DNA from: an uncultured Pseudoflavonifractor sp.
GTDB lineage: Bacteria > Bacillota > Clostridia > Oscillospirales > Oscillospiraceae
Direction: 5' to 3'
Assembly: GCA_947577065.1 (NCBI GenBank)
Contig: CANPTT010000008.1
Span: forward strand, 1 to 64,000
Length of the DNA stretch: 64,000 bases
Shown: positions 4,591-15,494 of the stretch, piece by piece
Layout of the letters: every line of letters begins with the position of its first letter
How positions within the stretch are numbered: position 1 is the first letter of the stretch
Program-made: the position numbers and the translations under genes
The notes under the pieces: model-generated
Seen by the model: the letters and a program-made list of their open reading frames with translations, nothing else
Told to the model about the DNA's origin: nothing
Databases searched by the model: none

Positions 4591-5490
4591 ATGACCATCA
4601 AGGAAGCCCAACAGCTCTCCGGAGTGTCCGCCGACAACATCCGCTTTTATGAAAAACAGGGACTTCTCCACCCCATACGGAATCCGGGCAACGACTACCG
4701 AAACTACTCGGAAGAAGATATCCGCGTCCTGAAGCTCATCCGGCTCCTGCGGACGCTGGATATGCCCCTGGAGCAGGTGAGGGAGGTCCTCCGGGGTTCC
4801 CTCCCCCTTCCCCAGGCCGCCGCCCGGCAGCAGGCGCTGTTGGAGGAACGTTCCCAGCAGCTTTCCCACGCCATCCGTCTCTGCGAAGAGTTTACCGCCC
4901 TTCCCAGCCTGGAAGGGCTGGATATAGACGCCCTTCTGGCCCGGATGGACGCCCCCGAAACCAGGGAAGGTTTCTTCCAGGGCTGGCTCCGGGATTACCG
5001 CCAGGTGGCTCTGGCCGAACATGAGAAACGGTTCACCTTCCTCCCGGACGAGGCGGTGACCACCCCCCAGGAATTCTCCGCCGCCCTCTTTCAATATGCC
5101 CGGGAACACGGCCTTGACCTGGTAGTTACCAAGGAAAGCATGTACCCGGAATTCACCATTGACGGGATCGAGTATACCGCCACCCGGAACTATACCGCTG
5201 TCCGGGGCTGTCCCGTAGCCTCCATCCACTGTCAGGTCCTCCACCCCGAGGACTTTGAGCCTCAAGGGGTCTCTCCTCACCGCCGCCGGCTTCAACGGCT
5301 GTTTCACCTGCTCTGGTTTCCCCTTCTTCTGGTCCTGCTCCTGCTTCTGTCCCGAAAGGACCAGCTTGGCGGGCTTCTTTCCTCCTGGGAGGGCTGGGTG
5401 GTCCTGGCCTCCCTCCTGGTGGCCGTCGGTACCATGTCCTTCCGGAGCTGGCTGCTCTTTTACAATGAAAACGGCAAGGGAAAAAAATAA
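4591..5490 (+). CDS. MerR-family regulator with C-terminal membrane anchor
   Basis: The 299-residue protein has a MerR winged-helix domain (residues 1-70: IKEAQQLSGVSADNIRFYEKQGLL, then DYRNYSEEDIRVL) and a coiled-coil dimer helix. A middle domain of about 120 residues of unknown ligand follows. Two hydrophobic segments (about 240-257 and 270-290) end it, followed by a basic tail GKGKK. Such a tail would tether the regulator to the membrane. The ATG at 4591 has AAAGGAG upstream and follows a 19-bp-spacer promoter. The effector is unknown; a membrane or envelope signal is inferred only from the anchor. Confidence 0.82.
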   Translation: MTIKEAQQLSGVSADNIRFYEKQGLLHPIRNPGNDYRNYSEEDIRVLKLIRLLRTLDMPLEQVREVLRGSLPLPQAAARQQALLEERSQQLSHAIRLCEEFTALPSLEGLDIDALLARMDAPETREGFFQGWLRDYRQVALAEHEKRFTFLPDEAVTTPQEFSAALFQYAREHGLDLVVTKESMYPEFTIDGIEYTATRNYTAVRGCPVASIHCQVLHPEDFEPQGVSPHRRRLQRLFHLLWFPLLLVLLLLLSRKDQLGGLLSSWEGWVVLASLLVAVGTMSFRSWLLFYNENGKGKK

Positions 5491-5503
5491 CGTTCTTTCC
5501 CTC

Positions 5504-5532
5504 TGGACACCCCCCTTTTTCCGTGATAGGAT
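5504..5532 (+). promoter_or_regulatory. Putative sigma-A promoter for the DUF3783 gene
   Basis: TGGACA (5504-5509) and TAGGAT (5527-5532) are 17 bp apart, upstream of the AAAGGGGGG ribosome site. Both boxes deviate from consensus. Confidence 0.4.
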
Positions 5533-13142: not shown

Positions 13143-13171
13143 AGTATATCAATCCAATCCGGAAATGTCAA
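13143..13171 (-). promoter_or_regulatory. Consensus promoter of rplU operon
   Basis: TTGACA (13166-13171) and TATACT (13143-13148) on the minus strand are 17 bp apart. The promoter overlaps the 3' end of the upstream HTH gene. Confidence 0.82.
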
Positions 13172-13586
13172 TAGGTTTTGGGGATAAAACCTTGTTTTCC
13201 TGGACTCTCCGCCGCTTTTTCTTCTCTAATTCCGCAAAACGGCTGCTCAAATATTCCGCTGTGACGCAGTCCGGCTCCTGAAACAGCGGGCTATCCCCCC
13301 GGCGGCGGAGGCTTTCCCGGCGCACCCAGGTCTGGTAAAAGGCCAATATCCGCCGCAGGGCTACGATCTCCCCCAGGGTTATCTTGACAGAGACGGTCAA
13401 CCGGTTTTCCTGCTCGTACATTTCCCGAACCCGCGCCAGCCGGCGGCGGCGCAGGAAATCCTGGTACAGGTAGGAGGCCTTTCCCGGAGAGATTTGATAC
13501 ATCTCCCCGATGGCTTTGAAGGTCAGGCCCTGCTGTTCCCGGAGCTTGGTGATCTCCTCGGACATTTTTATGGTTTGGGCATCCAT
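13149..13586 (-). CDS. HTH protein of unknown role
   Basis: This 145-residue basic protein has a helix-turn-helix near residues 12-45 (ITKLREQQGLTFKAIGEMYQISPGKASYLYQDF), reminiscent of sigma region 4 or Trp-repressor-type HTH. A long arginine-rich helical region follows (LRRRRLARVREMYEQENRL). No family was recognised. The ATG at 13586 follows AGAGGTG; an in-frame start seven codons earlier has none. A strong TTGACA-17-TAAAAT promoter drives it. It is divergent from a small XRE regulator, so the pair may be a remnant regulatory module. Confidence 0.5.
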   Translation of the reverse strand: MDAQTIKMSEEITKLREQQGLTFKAIGEMYQISPGKASYLYQDFLRRRRLARVREMYEQENRLTVSVKITLGEIVALRRILAFYQTWVRRESLRRRGDSPLFQEPDCVTAEYLSSRFAELEKKKRRRVQENKVLSPKPIDISGLD

Positions 13587-13607
13587 AGACTTCACCTCTT
13601 TTGACAT

Positions 13608-13693: not shown

Positions 13694-13915
13694 ATGTCAT
13701 ATTCTGAAAAGCTGCGGGAGCTGCGGACGGATCATGATAAGACACAGCAACAGATCGCGGATTTATTGCAGACTACGCAAACCTATTACGCCAAATATGA
13801 AAATGGGAAGCATCCCTTGCCTATCAAGCATTTGATAGCTTTGTGCGAATATTATCACGTCTCTGCTGATTATATTCTTGGGCTGCCAAAGGGGTTGGAT
13901 TGGCCAAGGGAGTGA
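13694..13915 (+). CDS. Small XRE-family (Cro/CI) regulator
   Basis: The 73-residue protein is essentially one Cro/CI helix-turn-helix domain: LRELRTDHDKTQQQIADLLQTTQTYYAKYENG, then LIALCEYYHVSADYILGLPKG. The C-terminal YHVSADYILGL segment is typical of Clostridia XRE proteins. It is likely a repressor acting at its own promoter and at the divergent HTH gene. Base composition of the gene is more A/T-rich than its neighbours, consistent with acquisition by transfer. A ribosome site, GGGAGATG, precedes the ATG. Confidence 0.8.
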   Translation: MSYSEKLRELRTDHDKTQQQIADLLQTTQTYYAKYENGKHPLPIKHLIALCEYYHVSADYILGLPKGLDWPRE

Positions 13916-13987
13916 GTTGGGGGTGGTTTCGTCTTCTGCTGATAGGCAGGATGGCGATGATGGGGTGTACCATTCCTTTCACTGAGT

Positions 13988-14132
13988 GGTCTGGGGGACT
14001 ATTCTTTGGCGGCAAAGAATAGCCCTCCAGACCCCCCAAGAAACCGCCAAGGGGAGAGAGTTTCGACTCTCTCCCCCCTTGGAACCCCTCTCTCAACGAC
14101 CAAAGAGGGGGCCCTGCGGGGCCCCTCTTTGG
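13988..14132. repeat. Tandem array of three large hairpins
   Basis: Three long inverted repeats follow each other: 13988-14033 (21-bp stem with two weak pairs, loop GCGG), 14047-14082 (about 15 bp, loop TTCG) and 14100-14132 (about 14 bp, loop TGC). None has a T run. The gap between genes holds no ORF of note. The array may be a repeated intergenic element or a structured RNA. Confidence 0.6.
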
Positions 14133-14154
14133 AAACTCCCCTCAGTTGTTCTAT

Positions 14155-14200
14155 TGTTAAAAACTGACCCCCACGGCGTTACGAAGTAAGCCGTGGGGGT
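14155..14200 (-). terminator. Terminator of the alcohol dehydrogenase gene
   Basis: ACCCCCACGGC pairs perfectly with GCCGTGGGGGT (11 bp, with a further TTAC/GTAA pairing inside the loop), followed on the minus strand by CAGTTTTTAAC. Confidence 0.75.
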
Positions 14201-14318
14201 TCGTTCGCCTTTTCTCTAATGTGACCCCGTTCCTCCCCCCCGCGGGCGCACATTGTGCGCCCCTGCGAAGGGCCAAGAGCAAGGGCGGAGTCCTCACTCT
14301 GGGAAATGTCTGCCCAAC

Positions 14319-15494
14319 TTATTTCGCCCGGCGGTAGATCTCCGCCATATCCTCCCGGGTCAAATGCTTGGCGGCTCCCAGGTTGCCCCGGGTTGCCGCG
14401 TCGCACTTCTCGGCCAACTCCAGCACCTGCTCCTCGGTGAGTTCCAAACCTAACTCCTTCAGGTTGGTGGGCATCCCGATCTCCCGGTAAAACTCCTCCA
14501 TGGCCTCCACTCCCTTCAGGGCGGTGGCGGTATCGTCGGCCTGGGGGGCCACCCCCAGCACGTTAACGGCAAACTTGGCGAAGCGCTCCGGGCACTCGGG
14601 CAGGACGTAGCGGGCCCAAGTGCCCCAGACGGCGGCAAGGCCCGCGCCGTGGGAGACGTCAAACATTCCCCCCAGTTCATGCTCCAGCCGGTGGCAGGCC
14701 CAGTCACCCTTGCCCGCGCCGCAGCCGGTAAGGCCGTTGTGGGACAGGCTGCTCGCCCACATCACATTGGCCCGGGCCTCGTAATCCTTGGGGGCCTTTA
14801 CCAGTGTCCTGGAGGCGTCGATAACCGTGCGCATAAGCCCCTCCGCAATGGCGTCGGTGAGAGCCATCTCGTCGACATTGAAATACCGCTCCATGGTGTG
14901 CATCAGAATGTCGGCACAGCCGCAGGCGGTCTGGTAGTCGGGCAGAGTCATGGTCAGCTCCGGATCCATAATGGCAAATTTGCACCGGCACAGATCGCTG
15001 TTGCAGCCTCGCTTAATGCCTCCATCCTCATTGGTGATAACAGAGGAGTCGCTCATTTCACTGCCCGCCGCAGCAATAGTGAGCACCGCACCGATGGGGA
15101 GGCAAGCGGTGGGGGTGCGCTTAAAGTCATAAAAATCCCAGACCTCGCCTCCGCTGGCTACACCGTAACCGATGGCCTTGGCCGAGTCGATCGTGCTGCC
15201 GCCGCCCACGGGGAGAAGGAAGTCCACGCCCTCCCTCTCGCACAGGGCGATCCCCTCCCGCACAAGCCCCACATGGGGGTTGGGGACTACGCCGCCCAGT
15301 TCTACGTATCCAACACCCACCGCGTCCAGGGACGCCTTTACCCGGTCCAGGACCCCGGTGCGTTTGACGCTGCCTCCCCCGTAGTGGATCAGGGCCTTCT
15401 TGCCGCCAAAAGCCCTGACCTGTTCCCCCACTTGGTCCAGGGCGCCCTTTCCAAAAATCACCTTTGTGGGGGTGTAGTACTGAAAATTCATCAT
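14319..15494 (-). CDS. Iron-containing alcohol dehydrogenase (butanol dehydrogenase type)
   Basis: The 391-residue protein is a group III iron-dependent alcohol dehydrogenase most like the YugJ/BdhA butanol dehydrogenases. The nucleotide-binding motif GGGSTIDSAKAIG lies near residue 96. Metal ligands are expected from the Asp before the TMERYF segment and from histidines in ILMHTMERY, RLEHELGG and VSHGAGLA. It should reduce aldehydes to alcohols with NAD(P)H in fermentation. The start is the first ATG of an ATG-ATG pair, behind GGGAG; a longer ORF upstream has no ribosome site. It is monocistronic with its own terminator. Confidence 0.9.
   Translation of the reverse strand: MMNFQYYTPTKVIFGKGALDQVGEQVRAFGGKKALIHYGGGSVKRTGVLDRVKASLDAVGVGYVELGGVVPNPHVGLVREGIALCEREGVDFLLPVGGGSTIDSAKAIGYGVASGGEVWDFYDFKRTPTACLPIGAVLTIAAAGSEMSDSSVITNEDGGIKRGCNSDLCRCKFAIMDPELTMTLPDYQTACGCADILMHTMERYFNVDEMALTDAIAEGLMRTVIDASRTLVKAPKDYEARANVMWASSLSHNGLTGCGAGKGDWACHRLEHELGGMFDVSHGAGLAAVWGTWARYVLPECPERFAKFAVNVLGVAPQADDTATALKGVEAMEEFYREIGMPTNLKELGLELTEEQVLELAEKCDAATRGNLGAAKHLTREDMAEIYRRAK

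Follow-up and report, generated by a model that had tools for sequence, protein, structure and literature searches.

The closest described counterparts of the DNA considered here are the potential intrastrand triplex (PIT) elements, or TM_ECO, which are found in E. coli and further proteobacteria (Hoyne and Maher; Holder et al., 2015, PMC4666352). TM_ECO consists of one 37-nt unit of the Y-R-R type (class II) that hardly varies from copy to copy and has no strand bias or link to mobile elements (PMC4666352). The best studied intrastrand triplex motif folds in vitro and has left no trace in vivo (PMC4666352). Purine-motif triplexes, in which G*G-C, A*A-T and T*A-T triads are formed, are reported not to form in RNA (PMC4666352).

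Other relevant systems are repeats with hairpin or inverted ends. MITEs and the RUP, BOX, Correia and enterobacterial RU repeats are non-coding, dispersed, intergenic and family-restricted, with inverted ends. REP/BIME sequences with their RAYT, and palindromes derived from IS200/IS605, have hairpin ends on one strand. Insertion of IS200/IS605 elements is biased to one strand relative to replication.

The Oscillospiraceae element described in this report shares features with these systems. Like PIT/TM_ECO it carries a short G/C-rich motif, intergenic and present in many copies, for a single-strand triplex of the purine type (compare PMC4666352), but it has two RH-R-Y (class I) units within a larger element, variable co-varying arms, and an orientation linked to the replication fork; by eye, its copies do not fit the TM_ECO pattern CCCTCNCCC N3-6 GGGNGAGGG N3 GGGNGAGGG. 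In contrast to the MITE-like repeats, it is larger (~590 bp) and carries a multi-hairpin, putatively triplex-forming arm, and no target duplication or partner transposase has been identified. Its arrays are far more complex than REP/BIME-RAYT or IS200/IS605 ends, and the Y1 transposase is not found in the copy-richest genome. As in H-DNA there is a mirror repeat, made up of the pyrimidine arm and the linker that follows it; in the consensus it measures about 11 bp and its spacer 4 nt. In the present element, however, the purine arm additionally pairs in cis and co-evolves, neither of which duplex H-DNA requires.

The hairpin array

The window (the whole 64,000-nucleotide stretch of DNA that was analysed) contains a 403-bp gap at 13916-14318, between a small XRE gene on the plus strand and an iron-type alcohol dehydrogenase gene that ends at 14319 on the minus strand. 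Four stem-loops, H1 to H4, span 13983-14205 of this gap. The features of the locus are as follows.

13694-13915, plus strand: small XRE gene facing H1; 73 aa, HTH_3 domain (Pfam PF01381, 50.4 bits)
13955-14203, plus strand: left-end-only copy of a dispersed ~590-bp element, from pairwise alignments with copies at unlinked loci
13991-14030, plus strand: H1 hairpin, CTGGGGGACTATTCTTTG / CAAAGAATAGCCCTCCAG; arms extendable to 13983-14038
14031-14045, plus strand: linker after H1, ACCCCCCAAGAAACC; orientation-specific co-variation with H1 not detected (z about 1)
14047-14082, plus strand: H2 hairpin, with compensatory changes across 24 copies
14047-14060, 14061-14066 and 14067-14082, plus strand: purine 5' arm, loop TTTCGA and pyrimidine 3' arm of H2
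14083-14094, minus strand: putative third strand of H2; plus strand AACCCCTCTCTC, mirror partner of arm AAGGGGAGAGAG at 14049-14060
14100-14132, plus strand: H3 hairpin, CCAAAGAGGGGGCCC TGC GGGGCCCCTCTTTGG
14133-14141, minus strand: putative third strand of H3; plus strand AAACTCCCC, mirror partner of arm AAAGAGGGG at 14102-14110
14168-14199, plus strand: H4 hairpin, CCCCCACGGCGTTAC / GTAAGCCGTGGGGG; not recognised as an intrinsic terminator

The initial annotation had described a row of large hairpins in this gap, with pairing far above background, and both observations hold: the predicted folding energy of 13980-14206 is -121.9 kcal/mol, against -79 +/- 5.1 in 200 dinucleotide shuffles (z = -8.4), none of which is as stable. 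Its reading of 14155-14200 as a genuine terminator is not supported. A terminator scan, in which a GC stem has to lead straight into a T run, found no plus-strand site at H4, and in other copies H4 ends in a conserved GGGGTTCG; the only two matches of the scan are minus-strand readings of H2 and H3, and these are not above chance. No Rfam family is present at gathering score in the whole window, and permissive matches lie far below threshold.

Other features of the window were also noted. A second dispersed hairpin repeat (GCGGGCGCACATTGTGCGCCCCTGCGAAGG) lies 3' of it at 14238-14273, and has many sites in a genome of another genus (G025) and also occurs in relatives, often with another palindromic core (GGGCGGATATTATCCGCCC and similar). 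The minus strand at 13149-13607 encodes a 152-aa HTH-like protein without a Pfam match, divergent from the XRE gene. Elsewhere in the window, a single A-rich stretch at 5477-5520 fits a loose triplex pattern (16 of 18 positions), probably by chance.

A dispersed element restricted to a family

The array belongs to a multi-copy, family-restricted, intergenic and non-coding element with hairpin-bearing inverted ends. Copies at unlinked loci have ~590 bp in common at roughly 70-90% identity. Counted from the start of H2, alignments of the window copy to unlinked copies run from -72 or -91 (-128 for locus L058) to +157, whereas complete copies elsewhere align to about +510; the window thus holds the left ~230 bp only, and the right end is missing, inverted H1 included. 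The stretch 13918-13954 may also be part of the element, as judged from the alignments. Complete copies begin with hairpins H1-H4 on the left, continue with a middle part that has no coding capacity, and are closed on the right by an inverted H1; in some, the whole array is also inverted at the right end. The family as a whole therefore has the multiple dispersed non-coding copies with inverted ends that characterize MITEs, although the window copy itself is without a right end.

The suggestion that this is a dispersed intergenic repeat of the lineage is confirmed at the level of genome, genus and family, and two checks that had been proposed, a copy search in the genome and covariance in relatives, both turned out positive. 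In the window's own genome, which is 85% complete in 64 contigs, additional copies lie on contigs C59, C38 and C11, while C31 and C21 hold partial ones. The stems are kept among relatives, and compensatory changes in them are numerous. A covariance model built on H2-H3 places the element in 12 of the 16 genomes of the genus, with copy numbers between species of that one genus ranging from 0 to 35 among the matches listed; the 35 are in the complete genome of Oscillospiraceae bacterium CE91-St43 (AP025582, here G010). Within Oscillospiraceae, 52 of 301 sampled genomes and 30 of 106 genera have it, whereas among about 290 other sampled genomes of the class Clostridia it was found in none except the window's own. 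Copies often stand at contig ends, as is typical of repeats. No match was obtained in phage and plasmid collections by blastn or in viral contigs by pattern search, and a search of the open-access literature yielded no description of such repeats in Oscillospiraceae.

Within G010, another repeat (GGCTTCCCCTGGGGGAAGCTGTC...GGAAGGC) is nested mid-element in many copies, noted at L124, L125, L128 and L135. In these G010 copies strong conservation and a structured look also mark the ~170 nt that precede the right H1.

Third tracts that co-vary with purine arms

The initial annotation saw the hairpins but missed the more informative pyrimidine linkers after H2 and H3, each of which mirrors the purine arm of the hairpin it follows. 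For H2, mirror pairs of arm and linker include GAGAGGGAGAG with CTCTCCCTCTC, AGGGGGAAAG with TCCCCCTTTC, and GAGGGGGAGAG with CTCCCCCTCTC. In a co-variation test on 121 distinct copies, linkers were permuted among copies and the match of each arm to its own linker was scored. The own-pair match is far above permutation, with z = 12.5 for H2 and 9.6 for H3 within the genus and 9.3 and 7.1, respectively, outside it, z values that overstate independence since copies are related by descent; none of 5000 permutations reaches the own-pair score. Reversed-arm controls, which represent the ordinary base-pairing relation, give z = 1.0, -0.1, 2.3 and 2.2. Arm words in which 7 or more triads are contiguous come in 43 distinct forms, and every one of them is matched by a mirrored partner of its own. 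A 9-triad motif is present in 86 of the 121 copies and absent from 400 kb of random strand sequence of G010; no triplex motif arose in 500 shuffles of the window gap.

H2 and H3 are thus each a hairpin joined to a third tract, which runs as a mirror image of the purine arm and co-evolves with it. This mirror relation cannot come from copying either strand, so that constraint on a three-tract structure is its natural reading. H1 was considered as a third unit of the same kind and rejected, as it has no third-strand signal (z about 1).

Triplex type and strand

The pairing code was derived with the register fixed on G:C alone. Arm G faces C, and faces A in 0 of 485 cases; arm A faces T 102 times, A 31 times and C 3 times. 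Read on the minus strand, this code gives the triads G*G-C, A*A-T and T*A-T, which are those of the purine motif in PMC4666352, and under it the third strands in the window match at 12 of 12 positions for H2 and 9 of 9 for H3. Purine-motif scoring exceeds the pyrimidine code in every set with signal. Mismatches within the stems provide a second indication of strand: on the plus strand A·C is found in 45 distinct contexts and G·T in 15, an excess that translates into G·T or G·U wobbles on the minus strand. Together with the reported incompatibility of the purine motif with RNA (PMC4666352), the code and the minus-strand wobbles favour minus-strand DNA. The pairing code and stem mismatches agree with a minus-strand intrastrand DNA triplex of the antiparallel purine motif, and the pattern is as expected if evolution were maintaining a DNA triple helix at H2 and H3.

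The class I order (RH-R-Y; Holder et al., 2015) of third strand, purine arm and pyrimidine arm is found in H2 and H3 of the window. The family consensus has a 6-nt loop and a 4-nt spacer; ITxF limits are loops of 1-6 nt and at most one mismatch, and H2 of the window needs an 8-nt spacer or a 2-nt bulge.

Genomic context and orientation

Copies favour convergent gene gaps and avoid promoters. According to home-made gene calls from a retrained caller, 45 of 98 copies lie in convergent gaps (background 17%) and 3 in divergent gaps (background 16%); in tandem gaps the array runs with the genes in 26 copies and against them in 24. H1 is approached by an XRE gene reading into it in 19 of 119 copies, against an expectation of about 2%, an approximately 7-fold excess (p about 2e-11, without correction for copies sharing a locus). 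The XREs adjoining arrays are diverse and do not form one mobile subfamily.

The XRE gene at 13694-13915 is regarded as an associated neighbour of the element. At the corresponding locus, G007 has array and XRE arranged as in the window, and the sister genome G014 has an array between the same XRE and neighbouring gene, in opposite orientation. G001 has the same convergent XRE and alcohol-dehydrogenase genes with only a short ordinary hairpin between them and no array, and in G013 and G009 the whole XRE region is absent. The 152-aa HTH-like gene is missing along with the XRE gene in the latter two genomes.

An end for the small XRE transcript had been among the functions first suggested for the hairpins. 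The association stands, but a protective role as a general explanation is rejected because most copies are without an XRE and array direction is independent of neighbouring genes. Carriage of the XRE inside the element was likewise rejected, given the diversity of adjacent XREs; only at locus L104, in another genus (G117), do arrays flank an XRE and a small gene. There, at 1480-2200, two inverted arrays enclose an XRE-like gene and a 52-aa ORF without a Pfam match, possibly a cargo-bearing version of the element.

Orientation relative to replication was assessed in the one complete genome, G010, whose GC skew indicates an origin close to 0 and a terminus at around 1.7 Mb. With two ambiguous inverted pairs left out, the plus strand of the array points in the fork direction in 23 of 26 copies, a bias that is only modest (p = 0.02) because 69% of random genes in this genome are on the leading strand. 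Convergent gaps offer no cue from gene direction, and there 11 of 12 copies are oriented with the fork. None of 30 copies falls within 1.14-2.38 Mb, a stretch of 1.24 Mb that surrounds the presumed terminus (uniform placement would give this with a chance of about 5e-7). With the arrays oriented along the fork, the leading-strand template is the minus strand.

Proposed element and alternatives

The preferred reading, to which a rough probability of 0.55 is given, is that the hairpins form the left end of a dispersed Oscillospiraceae element that is MITE-like and non-autonomous and has a structured, protein-recognised triplex end. Mobility, triplex formation in cells and a function of the element are inferred. 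When the minus strand becomes single-stranded, during replication, supercoiling or strand transfer, each unit would fold in the order third purine tract, purine arm, loop and pyrimidine arm into an antiparallel purine-motif intrastrand triplex. These units would give a stiff structured end, and a trans-acting recombination or replication protein may recognise this end and so allow spread into gene 3' ends. Co-orientation with replication would be explained if the element can insert, or persist after insertion, in just one direction with respect to the fork. That such elements, mobile or chromosomal, constitute a bacterial class of their own, not previously known and ending in a co-evolving purine-motif triplex hairpin array read as single-stranded DNA at the fork, is a tentative proposal put at somewhat below even odds.

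Some observations sit less easily with this model: H1 is without a third-strand signal, H2 of the window has a bulge or a long spacer, and for the related E. coli motif folding was observed in vitro but not in vivo (PMC4666352). The search for a transposase partner, for which Y1_Tnp was the one mobiliser sought, found none: the Y1 (HUH) transposase expected in the same genome for a REP/RAYT or IS200/IS605 relative is missing, and PF01797 (Y1) is absent from G010 and from seven other genomes of the genus, several of them copy-rich. Y1 is therefore not the obvious mobiliser. By eye no target-site duplication is certain, and an exact empty-site junction was not found.

If the arrays instead served the host, as triplex arrays at the fork that act as a polar pause or as a recombination or segregation signal and are placed by selection and not by transposition, the orientation with the fork (also in convergent gaps), the position of all 30 G010 copies outside the terminus region and the keeping of the third strand across genera would be readily accounted for. 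Such a role is nevertheless unlikely, as copy number differs from 0 to 35 between species of one genus among the matches listed, either orientation occurs in the same gap in different species, and complete copies have element-like inverted ends. A structured RNA, which had also been suggested for the locus, would have to be transcribed from the minus strand and might act as a 3'-end protector, insulator or bidirectional attenuator in convergent gaps. The compensatory changes, the preference for convergent gaps and gene 3' ends, and the excess of A·C over G·T on the plus strand, which would be G·U wobbles in a minus-strand RNA, are all compatible with it; G·T is, however, also the better-tolerated mismatch in a DNA hairpin, orientation shows no preference relative to neighbouring genes (26 against 24), and neither an Rfam family nor a plus-strand terminator was found. 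The third-strand code is moreover that of the purine motif, reported not to form in RNA (PMC4666352). The RNA proposal is thus kept as a rival, a distinctly improbable one, with the strand-specific evidence pointing to the minus strand and a DNA-type triplex code.

A parallel pyrimidine-motif (class III) triplex on the plus strand, in RNA or DNA, was the first hypothesis and was displaced by the pairing code, the wobbles and the code scoring. Pairing of arm G with C and of arm A with T fits it equally well, and its code gives z = 10.2 and 6.6 for H2. It leaves unexplained why 31 of 136 arm A positions, but no arm G, face an A, a fault in a parallel triplex, scores below the purine-motif code wherever signal exists, and would require protonation for its C+*G-C triads; the G·T wobbles indicate the minus strand. 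This form of triplex is accordingly considered highly improbable.

Significance

Whether intrastrand DNA triplexes form and have a role inside bacteria is an open question, for which the purine-motif element family provides a testable case. Over 100 natural variants are available in which the stem and the third tract change together, and the pairing code tells triplex type and strand apart. If the interpretation is true, it would be the first comparative-genomic evidence, in the form of third-strand co-variation, that intrastrand triplexes are selected and used in living bacteria. The element also adds an undescribed repeat family to abundant gut bacteria, and its replication bias suggests a mode of movement or of tolerance.
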